Below the pieces are notes generated by a model. The model saw only the letters and a program-made list of their open reading frames with translations, was not told the DNA's origin and ran no database searches. Made by a program: the position numbers and the translations under genes. From Deltaproteobacteria bacterium (GTDB lineage: Bacteria > Desulfobacterota > G020345765), in assembly GCA_020345765.1 (NCBI GenBank), contig CP070770.1, forward strand, positions 3,019,159 to 3,055,812: a stretch of 36,654 nucleotides of DNA. The letters are read 5' to 3'. Position 1 is the first letter of the stretch. The number at the start of each line of letters is the position of its first letter. Positions 25,510-34,654 of this stretch are shown here, piece by piece.

Positions 25510-27384
25510 ATGAGTAAGCAGAAATTCTTTGGTCGGGTGCTGGGTATTATCCTGATAACCGTCTATTCCCTGATTATGATGATCGAGCTTCTGATCTACT
25601 TCGTGATGAATGCCACCCCCGATGATTTCAGGCGCATGATTATTTACCCCATACCGGTCGAACTCGTTCTCGTCGGGAGTTATATTGCGATCGTTTATGT
25701 TTATCTCCGTCCCGTCCTTGCTTTCCTGGAAGCCGACCAGAAAGGGGAGCACCTGTATGAGGCCGAAGTACTTTCCGTCCAGGATCGTTGCGTTAATCTC
25801 GCCTATTTCCTGGCCGCTCTTTCTTTTCCGGCTTTCATTTTGGGCGGAGCTCTCGGGATCTTGCTGGCTTCCTTTATTATCAAATGGCCTCTGTATCTCT
25901 GGATTTACGGGCTCCTTGCCGGAATTATCTGCGGGCTCCTGACGATTCCCATATCCATTTATGCTTCCAATTGGTTGGTGGAGCCGGTGCTCGCGCGAAC
26001 CATAGCCCTGCTTTCCGATCGCGATACCGCCCGGATCGCTGGACGATGGTTGCCCCTCCGGAACAAATTTGTCATGATCGTGATTGTCCTGGTGGTAAGT
26101 ATCACCGGCTACACCATGATCGTGGGTTACGGCCAGACCAATGCCGTGCTCAAGAACATGGAAAAGATGGAACGATCCATTTCCCCATCCGTTGCCGCCG
26201 GTTTTGTGGACGAGATTAAAAATTATAATGACCCGGCGATCAGGTCGTCCCGATTCTTCAAATCACGAATCGGGAGCCTCCGGATCTTCTACTTCGTACT
26301 CATGCTGCTCAGCTCAGGATTCGGCCTGGCACTGGCTTTCGCCGTTGCCCGGGAGACGACGAAGCCGGTCCGTATTCTCCAGACCGTTGCCGAGCAGGTA
26401 AGGGAAGGGAATTATTTCGAGCCGGCCCGGATCGTAAGTAATGATGAGTTTGCCGAGCTGGGAGGGGTCTTCAATCAGATGAAAGATACCATTGTGGGAC
26501 AGATGAAGGCCGCGGTATCCATACTGGAAACCCTCCGCTACGGGATTATGGGGATGGATGAGACGGTGAGCACCGTGCTCTCGGTGAGTGCGGAGCAATC
26601 GAGAGGGGCCGCCAAACAGGCCTCCGCGGTTCAGGAAACTTCAAGCACCGTCGAGGAGATGACGGTTATTGCCCGGGAGATCATGGAGCGGGCTAAGACG
26701 GTGGATGAGGTGGCCTCCAAGACCCTCAGTGCATGTCACGATGGGCAGCAGAGGCTTGACCAGGTGCAGAAGGACTTCCAGGGAGTTACGGAGCAGGTTG
26801 ATGCGATCAGGGATGCGATGGTCATGCTGGAGGACCGTTTCCGGGAGACCTACCGGATCGTCGAGTTGATGGAGAAGGTTGCGGAGCAGACCGAGCTCCT
26901 GGCGATGAACGCCACTCTGGAGGCTGCGGGAGCGGGCGAGGAAGGACGCCGGTTTTCGGTAGTTGCCATGGCCACCCGGACCCTGGCAGTCAAGGCGAGG
27001 GAAGCGACGAAGGAGATCCGGGACTTGGTCGAGGCCATTCAGGAGGCAACCACGAAGAGCACCCGGATCGCCGAGGGTGGTCGGGAGAAGGTAGCGGTTG
27101 GGGGCAGTGCGATTTCGGGAGTGATCGATGCTTTGCAGACGATATCGTCGCTGGCGGACTCCACTTCGTCCGCTGTCCGTGAGATCACGGTTTCGACCGG
27201 GCAGCAGACCTCGGCCTCGGAGCAGCTCGCCGCTGCGATCTCCGAGGTAAACGAGGTTGCCGGCCGGGTGGAGAACGGGGCCCGGGAGATTGAGTCGGCA
27301 ATTGGGAGGCTCAGGGATTTTGCGGAGAACCTGCGGGCCACCGTAGAAGAAGACAGTTCACTGAACCGTCTCGGCCCGGTTTAG
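25510..27384 (+). CDS. Six-helix methyl-accepting chemotaxis-like protein 1
   Basis: 624 residues. Hydrophobic helices at about 7-32, 44-66, 100-125, 128-155, 189-210 and 255-280; only about 45 residues lie between the last two, so there is no large periplasmic sensor. A HAMP domain (about 281-335, TTKPVRILQTVAEQV) leads to a long coiled-coil signalling domain. The hairpin tip reads VAEQTELLAMNATLEAAGAGEEG (written in parts: VAEQTELLAMNA, then TLEAAGAGEEG), which resembles the MCP tip, but the Arg of the usual EAARAGE is Gly. That Arg contributes to trimer and CheA/CheW contacts. The gene is followed by a close paralogue after 45 bases. No cheA, cheW or cheY is nearby. It may sense an intramembrane or energy signal. 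Confidence 0.88.
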   Translation: MSKQKFFGRVLGIILITVYSLIMMIELLIYFVMNATPDDFRRMIIYPIPVELVLVGSYIAIVYVYLRPVLAFLEADQKGEHLYEAEVLSVQDRCVNLAYFLAALSFPAFILGGALGILLASFIIKWPLYLWIYGLLAGIICGLLTIPISIYASNWLVEPVLARTIALLSDRDTARIAGRWLPLRNKFVMIVIVLVVSITGYTMIVGYGQTNAVLKNMEKMERSISPSVAAGFVDEIKNYNDPAIRSSRFFKSRIGSLRIFYFVLMLLSSGFGLALAFAVARETTKPVRILQTVAEQVREGNYFEPARIVSNDEFAELGGVFNQMKDTIVGQMKAAVSILETLRYGIMGMDETVSTVLSVSAEQSRGAAKQASAVQETSSTVEEMTVIAREIMERAKTVDEVASKTLSACHDGQQRLDQVQKDFQGVTEQVDAIRDAMVMLEDRFRETYRIVELMEKVAEQTELLAMNATLEAAGAGEEGRRFSVVAMATRTLAVKAREATKEIRDLVEAIQEATTKSTRIAEGGREKVAVGGSAISGVIDALQTISSLADSTSSAVREITVSTGQQTSASEQLAAAISEVNEVAGRVENGAREIESAIGRLRDFAENLRATVEEDSSLNRLGPV

Positions 27385-27429: not shown

Positions 27430-29298
27430 ATGAGTAAACGAAAATTTTTAGAGCGGTTGGTAGGCGCTATTCTGCCGATTGTCTTTTTGAATATAATCGG
27501 GATCGAGATCCTGATGTACTTCGTGATGAGTCCCACATTCGACGAGACCAAGATCATGCTCACCTATCCTTTGCCCCCAGCCATCGCCATCATCGTTATA
27601 TATTTTGTGGTTGTCAGCATTTATTCCCGCCCGATTTTTCTTCTCCTGGAAGCTGACAAGAAAGGCGAAGTTCTGGATGAGGGCATGGTGCGTTTGGTTC
27701 AGGATCGATGCGTGGACCATCCTTATTTACTAGCCGACCTTTCTTTCCCGGCCTACATTTCCGGCATGGTCGTCGGGGTCTTAATCGTTACCCCGATCCT
27801 GGGCTGGCCCCGGGACACCTGGGTTTACGGGCTCCTTGCCGGTATTATCGCCGGGCTTATGACGACTCCCATGGCCATCTATGCCTCTGGTTATGTGGTG
27901 GAGCCGATACTGCAGCGAACCATGGCTCTGAGCCCCGATCATGATGCTGCCCGGATCGCAGGGTGGAGATTTCCTCTGCGAAACAAATTTATCATGATCG
28001 TGATTGTCCTGGTAGTGAGTATTGTCGGTTATGCCATGATTGTGGGTTACAGTCAGACCGACGCCGTGCTCAAGAATATGGAAAAGATGGAACAGGTTCT
28101 CCCTCCCTCGGTAGCTTACGGTCTCTTGGACCGGGTCGAAAATACCACCGACCCGGGAATCAGGTCTTCCCGATACTTCCGGTCACGAATGGGAAGCCTT
28201 CAGACCTTTTATTTCATGCTTTTACTGGTTGGTTCGGGATTAGCCCTGATTATCACTTACGCCGCTGCTCGGGAAACGACGAAACCGATCCGGATTCTCC
28301 AGAGCGTTGCCGAGCAGATAAGCCGGGGGAATTATGATGAACCGGTTCGTCTCGTGAGTAATAATGAGTTTGCCGAGTTAGGAGTAGCCTTCAACCGGAT
28401 GAGGGATACCATCGCGGGGCAGATTAAGGCCACCGAATCGATACTGGAGACTCTCCGCTCAGGGATTATGGGGGTGGACGAGACGGTGAGTACCGTGCTT
28501 TCGGTGAGTGCGGAGCAATCGAAAGGGGCCTCCAAGCAGGCTTCCGCGGTTCAGGAGACCTCCAGCACCGTCGAGGAAATGACGGTCATTGCCAAGGAGA
28601 TCATGGAGCGGGCCAAAATGGTGGATGAGGTGGCCTCCAAGACCCTCATTGCATGTCACGATGGTCAGCGGAGGCTCGACCAGGTGCAGGGGGACTTTCA
28701 GGAGATCATGGAGCAGGTCGATGCGATTAGGGACGCGATGGTCGTGCTAGAGGACCGTTTCCGGGAGGTCTACCGGATTGTCGAGTTGATAGATAAGGTT
28801 GCGGAGCAGACCGAGCTTCTGTCGGTGAGTGCCTCGCTGGAGGCAGCAGGAGCGGGTGCCGAGGAGCGTCGGTTCTCGGTAGTCGCCACTTCCACCCGAA
28901 GCCTGGCGGTGAAGGCGAGGGAGACAGCGAAGGAGATCCGGGCTTTGGTCGAGATTATTCAGGAAGCAACCAAGAAAAGCACCCGGGTTGCCGAGGCTGG
29001 TCGGGAGAAGGTGGCGGTTGGGGTAAGTGCGATTTCGGGAGTGATCGATGCTCTGCAGACGATATCATTGCTGGCGGGCTCCACTTCATCCGCGGTCCGC
29101 GAGATCACCGTTTCAACCGAACAGCAGACCTCAGCCTCGGAGCAGCTTGCCTCCGCCATCTCCGAGGTAAACGAAGTTGCCGGTCAGGTGGAGGACGGTG
29201 CCAAGGAGGTTGATTCGGCGATTGTAAAACTCAGGAACTTTGCGGAAGCGCTGCGGACCACCGCAGAAAAAAGCAGTTCAATCCAAAATGGGTTCTGA
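27430..29298 (+). CDS. Six-helix methyl-accepting chemotaxis-like protein 2 (tandem paralogue)
   Basis: 622 residues, colinear with the preceding receptor over its whole length: same six helices, HAMP (TTKPIRILQSVAEQ) and signalling coiled coil. Long DNA stretches between the two are nearly the same, as around 26560-27250 and 28490-29180, so this is a tandem duplication. The tip is more degraded: VAEQTELLSVSASLEAAGAGAEE, quoted in parts as TELLSVSASLE and AAGAGAEE. The usual LNA is SVS, the ARAGE Arg is Gly and the following Glu is Ala. It may have lost normal coupling to CheA or act through its paralogue. It begins 45 bases after the first receptor and is probably on the same transcript. The 3' flank holds a REP-like fragment. 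Confidence 0.87.
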   Translation: MSKRKFLERLVGAILPIVFLNIIGIEILMYFVMSPTFDETKIMLTYPLPPAIAIIVIYFVVVSIYSRPIFLLLEADKKGEVLDEGMVRLVQDRCVDHPYLLADLSFPAYISGMVVGVLIVTPILGWPRDTWVYGLLAGIIAGLMTTPMAIYASGYVVEPILQRTMALSPDHDAARIAGWRFPLRNKFIMIVIVLVVSIVGYAMIVGYSQTDAVLKNMEKMEQVLPPSVAYGLLDRVENTTDPGIRSSRYFRSRMGSLQTFYFMLLLVGSGLALIITYAAARETTKPIRILQSVAEQISRGNYDEPVRLVSNNEFAELGVAFNRMRDTIAGQIKATESILETLRSGIMGVDETVSTVLSVSAEQSKGASKQASAVQETSSTVEEMTVIAKEIMERAKMVDEVASKTLIACHDGQRRLDQVQGDFQEIMEQVDAIRDAMVVLEDRFREVYRIVELIDKVAEQTELLSVSASLEAAGAGAEERRFSVVATSTRSLAVKARETAKEIRALVEIIQEATKKSTRVAEAGREKVAVGVSAISGVIDALQTISLLAGSTSSAVREITVSTEQQTSASEQLASAISEVNEVAGQVEDGAKEVDSAIVKLRNFAEALRTTAEKSSSIQNGF

Positions 29299-30607: not shown

Positions 30608-31066
30608 ATGGCCAAGGCAGTAAGTGTTGAGGAACTGAAAGGTTATATCGGTAAGGAGATCGGGATCTCGGATTGGCTCGAGATTAACCAGGACCGTATT
30701 AACGCTTTTGCTGATTGCACCGAGGATCACCAGTGGATCCATGTCGACAAAGAAAAGGCCAGGCAAGGCCCTTTTGGCACTACCATTGCCCATGGCTATC
30801 TGACCCTCTCTTTGCTCCCCTACTTCGGTTATCAAAACAAGATTGTCCCTTCCGGGATCAAAATGACCATCAACTATGGGCTTAACCGGCTCCGGTTCAT
30901 AAACCCGGTCCCGGTAGGGTCGCGGATAAGAAACCGGGCCGTGCTCAAGGAATTGAACGATAAGGGCGAGGGCCGGATCCTGATGGTAACCGAGAGCACT
31001 ATTGAGATTGAAGGACAGGATAAACCAGCCATGGTCGCCGAGACAGTATCCATGCTTTTCTTGTAG
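30608..31066 (+). CDS. MaoC-type (R)-specific enoyl-CoA hydratase
   Basis: 152 residues from the ATG at 30608, chosen because AAAGGAGG ends six bases upstream; an upstream TTG in the same frame is unlikely. The hot-dog fold catalytic motif is DCTEDHQWIHVD, with Asp and His spaced as in (R)-hydratases, followed by AHGYLTLSLLPYF, the usual MaoC/NodN sequence. The enzyme hydrates trans-2-enoyl-CoA to (R)-3-hydroxyacyl-CoA in the cytoplasm. Single-domain members of this size are dimeric. No other beta-oxidation gene is adjacent, though the CoA ligase at 20436 could supply acyl-CoA. The ribosome binding site sits inside a spacer with CATTTGTCATTTGG repeats. A REP-like fragment follows. Confidence 0.92.
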   Translation: MAKAVSVEELKGYIGKEIGISDWLEINQDRINAFADCTEDHQWIHVDKEKARQGPFGTTIAHGYLTLSLLPYFGYQNKIVPSGIKMTINYGLNRLRFINPVPVGSRIRNRAVLKELNDKGEGRILMVTESTIEIEGQDKPAMVAETVSMLFL

Positions 31067-31078
31067 AAATGGTAGAAA

Positions 31079-31100
31079 TGGGGACGGTTCTATTTTTTAA
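31079..31100. repeat. REP-like spacer fragment
   Basis: TGGGGACGGTTCTATTTTTT then AA, sharing GGGGAC and TTCTATTTTT with 29321-29343. It sits between the MaoC gene and the kinase-like gene. Confidence 0.35.
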
Positions 31101-31228
31101 TAAACCGGGCGCTGGGCTTATTTTCTCTTAAGTTGTTTTAGAACAAATAAAAGTTAAGAATAGACTTGACTATTGCCTGGGTTTGGGCAAAGACCTCTGT
31201 AAACTATCTTGGTTTTTATGAGAAGAAA

Positions 31229-32899
31229 ATGATGAAGTTTGCCAGGCGGCAGAGGATTCTTGATGTAGACTATACCCATTTGGCCCTGGATGAAGAAGGC
31301 GATCTCTTTCTTACAGATTTTGCCGTGCCATTCGTCGAGTGCCTGTTACCCGAGAATTTCTGGTCTGACAAAGAATGGTTTGAAAAAAATTCTCAAAGAC
31401 TTACCGGGACAAGCAGCATTTACCGGATCAGGACAAAGGAAGTTAAAGGAAAGCAGAGGGACATAGTGCTCAAATGGAACCGGATGGGCCAGGGTGTTCC
31501 CGGGAGCGAAGACGACGAGCAGCTGGCCAATGCGGAGTTCAACAGTCCATTCGAGGAATTCTCTCTGCTGATGGAATTGAGAAGTTTATTGAGAGCAACG
31601 GGGACATCGCTCTATACGCAGAAACCATTGGCCATATTCGTACCGGAAAAGCGCGTGGAACTGCGGCGGATGGGGCGCAAAGAGTATCTGATGAAGGCTA
31701 TTATCGAAAAGCACATCGAGATCGACCTCGACATGCATCGTGCGTATGGTGTCATTTACGAATGGGTGAAGGGGATAGATGCTACCCAGGCTTTACAACA
31801 GCATATCATTGATGAAGAGCTTGTGGAATCACTCACACTTCAAGCACATAAAAGGATGTTGGATTGCGGATTCGATGTGAAAGACAACAAGCCTCATCAT
31901 ATTATAGTCCGGCCGAAGGGCAATGAGGAGATCCTGCGTGATTCAAAAAACAATCCGCTCTATGCAGTGGTGGATCACGAGCTTCTGAAAAGAACACCTG
32001 AGTGGGAAAAGATCGTGAAGGGCCGTAAGCGTAAGGAGTATTTGGAAAAACAGCGGGACAGATTCCGGGTCGGGATTCCTACGAGGCTCCCACCGCCCCT
32101 TAAGCACGTAAATATTATGGGAGTCGATTACATATACGGGCCCTGTGAAAGCACCGGCGGCGCTCTTTGGGTGGTAGGAAAGGACCCCGACCTGTTTGAC
32201 TATTTCCTGCCGGAGAAGTGGGAAAAGACTCCCCGCAACCGGTTATCAGCGTACAACGAAATATACCATACGCTGACAAAAGATAATATCAACCTTGTAT
32301 GGAAGGTTTCCAAGGTAGGTGTGCAGCCGGATATGGACCCCTTCAAGGAGGATGAAAAGAAAATCCTGGAATTTGGATATAACAGTCCGTTCGAAGAAGT
32401 TTCTCTTGCTATTGGGCTTACCCGTGCATCTATACCAACGACATATCCGAGGGCGATATACATGACCGGCATCAAGACCGAAATCCCCAATACACTATCT
32501 GACGACAGCCGCTATGAAAGTCATAAGAAATACATGACCCCGGATAACCGGCCCATTCTGAGGAAAGACCGCGACTATATATCAATCTGGGGTTACTGGA
32601 ACGGCCCCGACGAGAAGCTCGCGGATGAGGACGGGAACTATTACCGGGGGGTTGACGCCCTTCGTGCGCTGAGAGAAGGGATGATCTCAAACGAGACCTA
32701 TTTGAATTTGCTTCAGTCCATTAAGCAAAGACTGCTGCTTGCCGGGGTCGAGGATCTTAACTTGCGGGGAAGCCATCTTCTCTTATCGGTCCTGATAAGC
32801 ACAGGCCATCTGATTACCGACAGGGGGAACATTCCGGAAATCCGCATCTGCAGTTTTGAGTTGCTGAAAGATTTACAAAAACAACAAATTAACAAATGA
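31229..32899 (+). CDS. Tandem-duplicated kinase-like protein of unknown function
   Basis: 556 residues from the first of two ATGs (31229, 31232) with GAGAAG upstream; a TTG at 31166 would add 21 residues. The protein is two diverged copies of one module, about 1-275 and 285-556. Matching pairs are ILDVDY/IMGVDY, LLPENFWS/FLPEKWEK, FNSPFEEFSLLMEL/YNSPFEEVSLAIGL, HRAYGVIYEWVKGID/DYISIWGYWNGPD and VDHELL/CSFELL. Copy 1 resembles an atypical protein-kinase fold: IVLKW (beta-3 Lys, about 80), Glu in the SPFEE helix, hinge, DVKDNKPHHII (catalytic-loop-like, about 216-226) and AVVDHELL (DFG-like Asp, about 249). In copy 2 those acidic residues are lost, suggesting a pseudokinase half. The kinase reading is inference; no exact family was recognised. 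A methyltransferase gene follows after 19 bases. Confidence 0.75.
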   Translation: MMKFARRQRILDVDYTHLALDEEGDLFLTDFAVPFVECLLPENFWSDKEWFEKNSQRLTGTSSIYRIRTKEVKGKQRDIVLKWNRMGQGVPGSEDDEQLANAEFNSPFEEFSLLMELRSLLRATGTSLYTQKPLAIFVPEKRVELRRMGRKEYLMKAIIEKHIEIDLDMHRAYGVIYEWVKGIDATQALQQHIIDEELVESLTLQAHKRMLDCGFDVKDNKPHHIIVRPKGNEEILRDSKNNPLYAVVDHELLKRTPEWEKIVKGRKRKEYLEKQRDRFRVGIPTRLPPPLKHVNIMGVDYIYGPCESTGGALWVVGKDPDLFDYFLPEKWEKTPRNRLSAYNEIYHTLTKDNINLVWKVSKVGVQPDMDPFKEDEKKILEFGYNSPFEEVSLAIGLTRASIPTTYPRAIYMTGIKTEIPNTLSDDSRYESHKKYMTPDNRPILRKDRDYISIWGYWNGPDEKLADEDGNYYRGVDALRALREGMISNETYLNLLQSIKQRLLLAGVEDLNLRGSHLLLSVLISTGHLITDRGNIPEIRICSFELLKDLQKQQINK

Positions 32900-32918
32900 G
32901 AAAAGAAAGGTTAGGGGA

Positions 32919-33602
32919 GTGAGTTCGAATTCAAAACCTCATGACTACTTACAGGATGTTCAGAAGTTATTTACTGAGAAGACATCATTGTATCATCTCG
33001 TATTTTTGGATATTTTCAGATATCACAAAGGGCTTAAGATGTTTCTCCGGAAATCAAATTGTTTACAGCCCGGCATGAAGGTTCTGGATGCCGGCTGCGG
33101 CTCGGGTAACCTGACAAGAAACCTGTATGAAATTGCATCTGAAAAAGGATTGGACGGCATATCTTTTCATGGATTTGACATCACCCAGGCAATGCTTGAC
33201 CTGTTTAAAAAATGGATATCGGGAAAAAAGGCAGAGAACGTTGAATTAAGCCGGGCAAATGTTCTGCAGCCTGGACAACTACCCGTTGAATGGAAGGATT
33301 ACGATCTCGTTGTTTCGGCTGCCATGTTGGAATACCTGCCAAAGGATGAGATTAAAGATGCCCTGCGAAATTTAAGAATATTATTGAAAGACAATGGTAA
33401 AATAATAGTATTCATTACGAGAGACAATATTTTGATGAAATTGCTTATACAGATTTGGTGGAAAGCAAACATGTATAAAAGAAGCGAGATGATGGAGATA
33501 TTTAAGGATGCCGGCTTCGGCAGGATTCGATTTAAAAGATTCCCGTTCCCGTACTCCTATCTGAGCTTATGGGGACTTATTATAGAAGCAGAAAAGGGGT
33601 AA
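32919..33602 (+). CDS. SAM-dependent class I methyltransferase
   Basis: 227 residues. Motif I is VLDAGCGSGNL (about 55-65), the strand-2 acidic residue is in FHGFDITQAML, and later motifs are DYDLVVSAAMLEYLP and LRILLKDNGKIIVFI. The start is GTG, with AAAGG about eight bases upstream. A long N-terminal helix (about 1-45) precedes the Rossmann part. Substrate not evident; the LEYLP region is found in small-molecule and lipid methyltransferases. It is not a close copy of the methyltransferase at 11636. It lies 19 bases after the kinase-like gene, so the two probably act together. Confidence 0.88.
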   Translation: MSSNSKPHDYLQDVQKLFTEKTSLYHLVFLDIFRYHKGLKMFLRKSNCLQPGMKVLDAGCGSGNLTRNLYEIASEKGLDGISFHGFDITQAMLDLFKKWISGKKAENVELSRANVLQPGQLPVEWKDYDLVVSAAMLEYLPKDEIKDALRNLRILLKDNGKIIVFITRDNILMKLLIQIWWKANMYKRSEMMEIFKDAGFGRIRFKRFPFPYSYLSLWGLIIEAEKG

Positions 33603-33639
33603 TAATCCTTAGAAAAGTTGGATATTATTGAAATATTGA

Positions 33640-33656
33640 CCCCGCCAAAGGCGGGG
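33640..33656. repeat. GC palindrome in the spacer after the methyltransferase
   Basis: CCCCGCC-AAA-GGCGGGG, a seven-base-pair hairpin with a three-base loop. It is a strong hairpin but is followed by CTCCGG, not a T-run, so rho-independent termination is doubtful. It shares its core with 343-355 and 7735-7749. A weaker hairpin follows at about 33678-33697 (GTTACC and GGTGAC) with TTTT behind it. Confidence 0.5.
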
Positions 33657-33799
33657 CTCCGGCCCGCATCTTGACCGTTACCGGTTATTTGGTGACTTTT
33701 GATTAGATTTTCATTGACCTGTTGGGGAAATTATCGGAGAATAGATAGTAGACTATGGTTTAACCGGAATAGATTCAGAGGGGAACAACAAGGAGAATT

Positions 33800-34654
33800 A
33801 TGAAAAAAGGAAACCGATCGCAGAAATTTACCGGCGCCACGAAATATGTGGTCGATGACGAGCTGGCTAAGATTGTCAATATTTCCATGGCCCTGGAAAT
33901 GCCCCTCCTGCTCAAGGGGGAGCCCGGCACCGGGAAAACCATGCTTGCCCATGCCATCGCGCAATCGCTTGGTATGCCGTTAATCGTTTTAAATGTTAAG
34001 TCCAACATGAAACTCGTTGACGCCCTTTACCAATACGATACCCTGACCCGGCTGAACGACAGCCGTTTCGGTGACTCCGGCCGGGATGTCAGCCGAATCG
34101 AGGATTATATCAAGATGGGGAAAATCGGCCAGGCGTTTACCGCGGAAACCCGGACCGTTCTCCTGATTGACGAGATCGATAAGGCGGATACCGACTTTCA
34201 GGATGACATGCTCGATGTGCTGGATCAGATGGAATTCGACATCATCGAGATCGACAAGACTGTCAGTGCCCGGTACCGACCGGTCATCGTTATTACCTCT
34301 AATGCCAAGAAGGACCTCTCCGACCCGTTTCTGGGGCGGTGCAACTTTCACCATATTGCGTTTCCCAATCCCGAGGGGATGCAGGAAATAATCCGGGTTC
34401 ATTTCCCCGATCTGGAAGCCAACCTGGCAAAACACGCCATCGCCACTTTCTACCGCTTGCGGGAGATCGACATGGTAGAAAAGAAGCCAGCCACCCGGGA
34501 GCTGATCAACTGGATCCGGGCCCTCCAGCTCGATCCGGACTTCAAAACTCAAAATCTGGCAAAAGGTGAGGTTCCCTATCTGGGGGTTTTATTCAAGAAG
34601 AGCCAGGACTACGTAGTGGCAGATAGTTATGTCAACCGCCGAAGACCATTTTAA
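33800..34654 (+). CDS. MoxR/CbbQ-type AAA+ ATPase
   Basis: 284 residues. Walker A is GEPGTGKTM (about 40-48), Walker B LLIDEIDKAD (about 121-130), and sensor/arginine-finger regions are VIVITSNAKKDL and DPFLGRCNFHHI. The C-terminal lid is present and ends NRRRPF. MoxR-type ATPases work with VWA-domain proteins as chaperones that mature or activate partner enzymes, often metal-cofactor enzymes. Its partner follows after 84 bases. AAGGAG lies seven bases before ATG. The enzyme they would act on is not next to them, unless it is the cytochrome further right or an enzyme outside the window. Confidence 0.93.
   Translation: MKKGNRSQKFTGATKYVVDDELAKIVNISMALEMPLLLKGEPGTGKTMLAHAIAQSLGMPLIVLNVKSNMKLVDALYQYDTLTRLNDSRFGDSGRDVSRIEDYIKMGKIGQAFTAETRTVLLIDEIDKADTDFQDDMLDVLDQMEFDIIEIDKTVSARYRPVIVITSNAKKDLSDPFLGRCNFHHIAFPNPEGMQEIIRVHFPDLEANLAKHAIATFYRLREIDMVEKKPATRELINWIRALQLDPDFKTQNLAKGEVPYLGVLFKKSQDYVVADSYVNRRRPF

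Follow-up and report, generated by a model that had tools for sequence, protein, structure and literature searches.

A predicted tandem kinase-pseudokinase family and its possible link to the PEP-pyruvate-oxaloacetate-malate node

A duplicated protein and its downstream neighbor

What function might be served by a protein that carries two related kinase-like halves in a single chain, only one of which retains a complete active site, and does this function involve the methyltransferase encoded just downstream? The question is raised by a locus in the window, as we term the whole 36,654-nucleotide stretch of deltaproteobacterial DNA that was analyzed. A prior sequence-only reading had interpreted this locus as a kinase with an active first copy and a pseudokinase second copy, coupled to a methyltransferase; the kinase-like fold and the assignments of both copies stood up to the present analysis, whereas the coupling did not. 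The duplication, motif conservation, predicted structure, descent, and neighborhood described below all rest on computation. For the alignment and neighborhood analyses, the loci of 80 of 109 relatives were retained and 29 were left out. The features of the locus, with residue counts given over the 80 aligned rows, are as follows.

31229..32899, + strand: tandem kinase-pseudokinase gene, an ORF of 556 aa plus stop (80 aligned rows, mostly full-length)
31229..32083, + strand: copy 1 (residues 1-285), the kinase half with a complete active site (AlphaFold model with pLDDT 93.8 and pTM 0.90; PDB matches)
31400..31417, + strand: LTGTSS (residues 58-63), a putative glycine-loop-like element flanked in the model by beta strands 55-57 and 64-68 (L58 and G60 each conserved at 90% or above)
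31472..31474, + strand: beta-3 lysine K82, the putative ATP-binding Lys, on modeled strand 78-83 (K 80/80)
31553..31558, + strand: helix-C glutamates E109/E110 in FNSPFEE, on modeled helix 107-124 (both 80/80)
31763..31774, + strand: hinge W179-V-K-G182, following modeled strand 174-178 (W and G 80/80)
31883..31900, + strand: catalytic loop D219-N-K221-P-H-H224 (D 80/80, K 80/80, P 76/80, H224 79/80)
31973..31981, + strand: DFG-equivalent D249-H-E251, D-F/Y-E in relatives (D and E 80/80)
32084..32896, + strand: copy 2 (residues 286-556), the pseudokinase half (hhalign to copy 1; strands and helices modeled in the same order as in copy 1)
32393..32398, + strand: E389/E390, the copy 2 counterpart of the helix-C glutamates (E389 80/80)
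32759..32776, + strand: decayed catalytic loop of copy 2, N511-L-R-G-S-H516 (N 56/80, D 6/80; H516 80/80)
32852..32854, + strand: S542 of copy 2, replacing the metal-binding Asp (N 75/80, S 2/80)
32919..33602, + strand: SAM-dependent methyltransferase ORF, 19 bases downstream of the kinase-pseudokinase ORF and not a conserved partner (Pfam; absent from the 80 related loci)

The two halves of the protein are recognizably related even in a direct blastp comparison (E = 7e-13, 24% identity over 274 columns), and profiles of copies 1 and 2 built from the 80 rows align with a probability of 99.93% (hhalign, E = 2.2e-35, 242 columns). The motifs FNSPFEE (residues 104-110) and YNSPFEE (residues 384-390) fall in the same register in both copies. 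The proposed internal duplication is thus borne out.

The identification of the downstream gene as a methyltransferase also holds (Pfam Methyltransf_25, E = 3e-15), and its spacing and shared strand with the kinase gene in the window would suit a small-molecule or lipid kinase acting on the same substrate as its neighbor. WbdD, a fused kinase-methyltransferase, is among the fold matches (4ax8, 4azt). Against this, no homolog of the methyltransferase was found at the 80 related loci or, at E <= 1e-10, in any of 58 other genomes of the phylum, three of which (G002, G034, and G048) carry the kinase. The sequence-only reading had named a lack of joint conservation as grounds for refutation, and this outcome applies to the pair; its other ground, a predicted fold unlike that of kinases, does not apply. 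In G001, a sister genome, the downstream AAA/VWA genes persist at 87% identity, while the DNA upstream of them differs, which places the methyltransferase in a variable block. Similarity to the lipopolysaccharide kinases of the Kdo type is weak and limited to 2 of the 80 members (E = 0.04), and nothing in the analysis spoke for the lipid or small-molecule substrate that had been suggested. We regard such a shared-substrate kinase as very unlikely; the adjacency looks incidental, and the partnership was ruled out on the counts over loci and genomes and on the variable block in G001.

The neighbors of the kinase in the window are a MaoC hydratase, the methyltransferase, and the AAA/VWA pair. A promoter and terminator scan of 30900-33900 gave matches at chance level. 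Elsewhere in the window, two adjacent genes for methyl-accepting chemotaxis proteins (25510-27384 and 27430-29298) form a tandem gene duplication, with products 69% identical over 619 residues.

Fold and active sites of the two copies

Structure prediction yielded a confident AlphaFold model of the whole protein (pLDDT 92.4, pTM 0.84). A comparison of copy 1 with known structures, which the sequence-only reading had proposed as a check, returned a kinase domain or kinase-like fold in all 50 of the PDB matches listed (probability 0.96-1.00), the best of these being CDC7 (E = 1.5e-4). The named matches among those listed from BFVD are likewise kinases, save for one viral polyprotein (best E = 3.7e-6). 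Superposition on the solved kinases is poor (TM 0.3-0.4, rmsd mostly 7 or more among the listed matches), indicating that copy 1 is a divergent member and no close relative of any solved kinase. We assign a protein-kinase-like fold with high confidence. Read from its secondary structure, the model of copy 1 comprises a kinase N-lobe preceded by an extra small beta unit, a hinge, a catalytic loop, a DFG-equivalent, and finally one long helix. It is predicted to lack the APE motif, the later C-lobe or substrate-binding helices, and a conventional activation segment.

Profile comparisons of copy 1 rank the Ser/Thr kinases first (hhalign probability 73%), ahead of the ABC1 (33%) and Kdo (10%) families, with 10 of 11 decoys scoring under 0.5%. 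The remaining decoy, dec4, gave 99% over 10-19 columns only and was discarded as a broken alignment rather than a match. In three genomes, what the family profile matches next best are genuine Ser/Thr kinases, two of them with Pfam Pkinase hits at E = 2e-40 and 2e-37. Neither the window protein nor the full profile retrieved anything useful from the PDB sequences, while the copy 1 profile recovered five weak, subthreshold matches, all to protein kinases; the two that were shown align at the hinge and the catalytic loop. Judged by sequence, then, Ser/Thr kinases are the closest kin. The kinase-like character and the statement that the protein belongs to no named family are both upheld: the window protein has no match above the Pfam cut-off and no NCBIfam match, and PF00069 gives no match in the window protein, the 80 members, or six single-copy homologs described below.

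Copy 1 shares with the Hanks-type Ser/Thr kinases (PF00069, e.g., PknB), its nearest relatives by both profile and fold, the beta-3 Lys, the helix-C Glu, the D-x-K-P signature, and the metal-binding Asp. It departs from them in having His rather than Asn in its catalytic loop and D-F/Y-E in place of DFG, in a C-lobe that ends after one helix, in the extra N-terminal beta unit, and in the fused pseudokinase. A check of the Hanks motifs accordingly found xxDxKPxH and D-F/Y-E, no APE, and, past the final strand of copy 1, a single helix. The ABC1/UbiB atypical kinases (PF03109) give weak matches to 7 of the 80 members (best E = 7e-4) and none to the window protein. The Kdo/WaaP lipopolysaccharide kinases (PF06293), which also have a His in the catalytic loop, remain below the cut-off in the two members that they match.

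The active site of copy 1 is under strict constraint: K82, R85, E109, E110, W179, G182, D219, K221, D249, and E251 are identical in all 80 rows, and H224 is kept in all rows except one, in agreement with the intact kinase site ascribed to this copy. E110 is retained in the single-copy homologs as well, whereas E109 is not kept in all of them. In the model, K82, E110, and D219 would lie on strand beta-3, helix C, and the catalytic loop, respectively, and D249 just past strand 245-247. The D-x-K-P sequence is similar to the HRDxKPxN loop found in Ser/Thr kinases, with the loop His occupying the place of their metal-binding Asn. In the VVDHELL motif of the window protein (31973-31981), His250 stands at the DFG Phe position, a state seen in this row only (1/80), the other 79 having F or Y.

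This atypical loop, with its His in place of Asn, and the low similarity to solved kinases raise the prospect that the fold uses ATP for some other transfer to proteins. Kinase-like folds are capable of such chemistry, as SelO, which AMPylates, and SidJ, which glutamylates, illustrate. However, D-x-K-P together with both catalytic Asp residues, which are invariant or nearly so, is the pattern of a phosphotransferring Ser/Thr kinase, and the nearest sequence kin are themselves Ser/Thr kinases. Such alternative chemistry is therefore unlikely in our estimation. We favor phosphotransfer by copy 1 as the likely activity, and copy 1 is probably a compact, catalytically competent Ser/Thr-type kinase.

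Copy 2 presents the opposite picture at the catalytic positions. The counterpart of D219 (position 511) is mostly Asn and that of D249 (position 542) Asn or Ser, confirming the earlier observation that this copy lacks the acidic residues, while E389 and H516 are invariant. Copy 2 is thus a pseudokinase, with a kinase fold and lost catalytic residues that is conserved as such and forms a single clade across phyla, and it is very probably inactive as a catalyst. Taken over both halves, the conservation pattern is that of a pseudokinase joined to a catalytic domain under constraint.

Distribution and descent of the family

At least 109 relatives, from over ten phyla, were detected in one genome collection, nearly all of them full-length tandem proteins of approximately 550-700 aa. 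The titles of the respective metagenome-assembled genomes name Deltaproteobacteria, Thermodesulfobacteriota, Elusimicrobia, Auribacterota, Omnitrophota, Spirochaetes, Nitrospirae, Planctomycetes, Lentisphaerae, Verrucomicrobia, Kiritimatiellae, Fibrobacteria/Chitinivibrionales, BRC1, and Zixibacteria, along with a single genome titled Altiarchaeota. One full-length copy was found per genome in the 25 genomes checked, the extra profile matches among these being an added C-terminal repeat (three) or ordinary kinases (two). Some larger members of approximately 650-690 aa (L086, L087, L089, and also L008) contain an additional repeat of the C-terminal portion of copy 2.

The distribution is patchy, with members in 8 of 395 sampled genomes of the window's phylum and in 27 of 388 and 8 of 393 genomes of the phyla of L059 and L022, respectively; none was found in one other genome of the same genus, which is 90% complete. 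Patchiness of this kind is what one might expect of an anti-phage defense or toxin-like kinase, and a defense role had been raised earlier. However, a PADLOC scan of the 80 loci produced only a single stray match (1/80, E = 0.004), no homolog of the tandem family was found in plasmids, phages, or viral contigs, and the recurrent neighbors are housekeeping metabolic genes. We consider a defense or toxin function highly improbable, and the defense-system candidate was rejected on the stray PADLOC match and the lack of homologs in those three sources.

A tree of 66 rows separates copy 1 from copy 2 with full support (100/100), and within each half the rows group in a broadly similar manner, which implies that the duplication took place before the family spread. 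Both halves derive from one ancient duplication. On this tree, the halves of the window protein fall among sequences of Nitrospirota, Elusimicrobiota, and Spirochaetota, a placement that would fit transfer between phyla.

Six Verrucomicrobia proteins of 305-328 aa consist of copy 1 only. Their position in the tree, within copy 1 and next to L087-L089, suggests that the pseudokinase half was lost, rather than that an ancestral single form was retained, and on this phylogenetic basis the standalone form seems to be a secondary loss of copy 2. The catalytic half can persist alone, as it does in these six genomes. In four of them (L115-L118), the standalone kinase gene directly adjoins argJ, the two being separated by a short gap or overlapping. 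In two Verrucomicrobia genomes, the halves occupy separate touching or overlapping frames (L111/L120 and L112/L119), representing either split genes or assembly frameshifts.

These standalone forms also bear on the notion that the protein is regulatory and noncatalytic, with both halves binding nucleotide and acting as a scaffold. The truncated C-lobe, which lacks the usual substrate-binding helices, would be compatible with such a role. Yet the catalytic residues of copy 1 are perfectly conserved over more than 10 phyla while copy 2 loses them, and the six proteins that have copy 1 alone keep the catalytic Asp, the Lys, and the metal-binding Asp. A purely scaffolding protein is improbable on these grounds, and an active copy 1 remains our preferred reading.

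Other genomes of the window's phylum encode proteins of approximately 540-580 aa with Kdo-kinase-like domains and two profile matches per frame (L139, L140, L144, L146, L148, and L149). Their sequences mark them as another tandem kinase-like arrangement with weak similarity to the tandem family; those of approximately 560 aa with two Kdo-like domains (L139, L144, and L146) are separate from it and score weakly with its profile.

Bacterial pseudokinases are for the most part unexplored by experiment (PMC12599244). The bacterial Ser/Thr pseudokinase families ActPs1-3, GLW, CP1, DYD, and DLHK (PMC12599244) share with the tandem family the presence of conserved bacterial pseudokinase domains but are pseudokinase families rather than kinases fused to their own decayed duplicates; the words tandem, fused, and dual do not occur in the text of that review (PMC12599244). 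No description of the tandem family was found in the literature, judged by the titles and abstracts listed, and we present it as a new, previously undescribed family.

Metabolic neighbors and a proposed role

The genes around the relatives offer a clue to function. Gene calls in these neighborhoods followed a simple longest-ORF scheme, with near genes defined as those within 450 bases of the kinase and far genes as those over 1500 bases away. Among 108 near genes, Pfam identified malic enzyme beside four kinases (L020, L021, L087, and L089), GTP-PEPCK beside three (L048, L059, and L072), and a PYC/OadA pyruvate/oxaloacetate (de)carboxylase beside three (L022, L023, and L069), in tallies that are approximate because some ORFs were set aside by eye (about 28 doubtful ones in the near set and 11 of the 145 sampled in the far set). 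PTS EIIA was likewise found near four kinases. The families listed for 134 far genes, a list in which singleton families were not shown, include none of the three enzymes. When all ORFs of at least 120 aa are taken in and compared by blastp, the three enzymes account for 10 of 136 near genes versus 1 of 332 far genes (Fisher p = 2.8e-5), a test that was framed after looking at the same loci and that counts the near relatives L020/L021 and L022/L023 separately, so that the events number approximately eight independent ones at most. Most of the 80 loci, including that of the window, have no enzyme of this node adjoining.

Single cases add a malate/lactate-dehydrogenase-family gene (L043), an aspartase/fumarase-type lyase (L082), an ADP-forming acyl-CoA ligase (L026), and PTS enzyme I (L126). 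At L084, the kinase gene overlaps by one base a gene resembling methylmalonyl-CoA epimerase, for which Pfam gives the glyoxalase family only, and a methylmalonyl-CoA-mutase-like ORF follows. Drawing on these gene neighbors, we consider a role in central metabolism possible, if still doubtful.

On the basis of these observations, we put forward as the best, if tentative, explanation, not far from evenly balanced, that the protein is a Ser/Thr-type kinase fused to a pseudokinase that regulates it, and that it plausibly controls the PEP-pyruvate-oxaloacetate-malate node. Copy 1 would phosphorylate Ser/Thr residues of proteins, and copy 2, in which the kinase fold, the loop His, and the helix-C Glu are retained but both catalytic Asp residues are lost, would most likely regulate or complete copy 1. 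The substrates would be one or a few metabolic proteins at this node. We infer phosphotransfer, a protein substrate, allostery, and the metabolic role, and we lean modestly toward a protein as the substrate. The classic precedent for phosphorylation in central metabolism is AceK, which acts on isocitrate dehydrogenase. AceK is similar in size to the tandem protein and is not known to contain a duplication. The AceK family does not occur among the Pfam or NCBIfam matches or among the 50 listed fold matches of copy 1; it would be analogous in the proposed role, a kinase fold controlling a central-metabolism enzyme, and unrelated.

Across phyla, an active-looking kinase copy and its decayed counterpart have remained joined in one chain ever since a single duplication. 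The apparent loss of the decayed copy in one lineage provides a natural experiment on the role of the pseudokinase half. A more far-reaching version, which we hold to be somewhat unlikely, is an unrecognized posttranslational switch of the PEP-pyruvate-oxaloacetate node in over ten phyla, in which a kinase governed by its own decayed duplicate would phosphorylate PEPCK, malic enzyme, oxaloacetate/pyruvate (de)carboxylase, or PTS regulators. If the neighbor signal holds, the main branch point of anaerobic carbon metabolism would appear to be subject to a phosphorylation switch.
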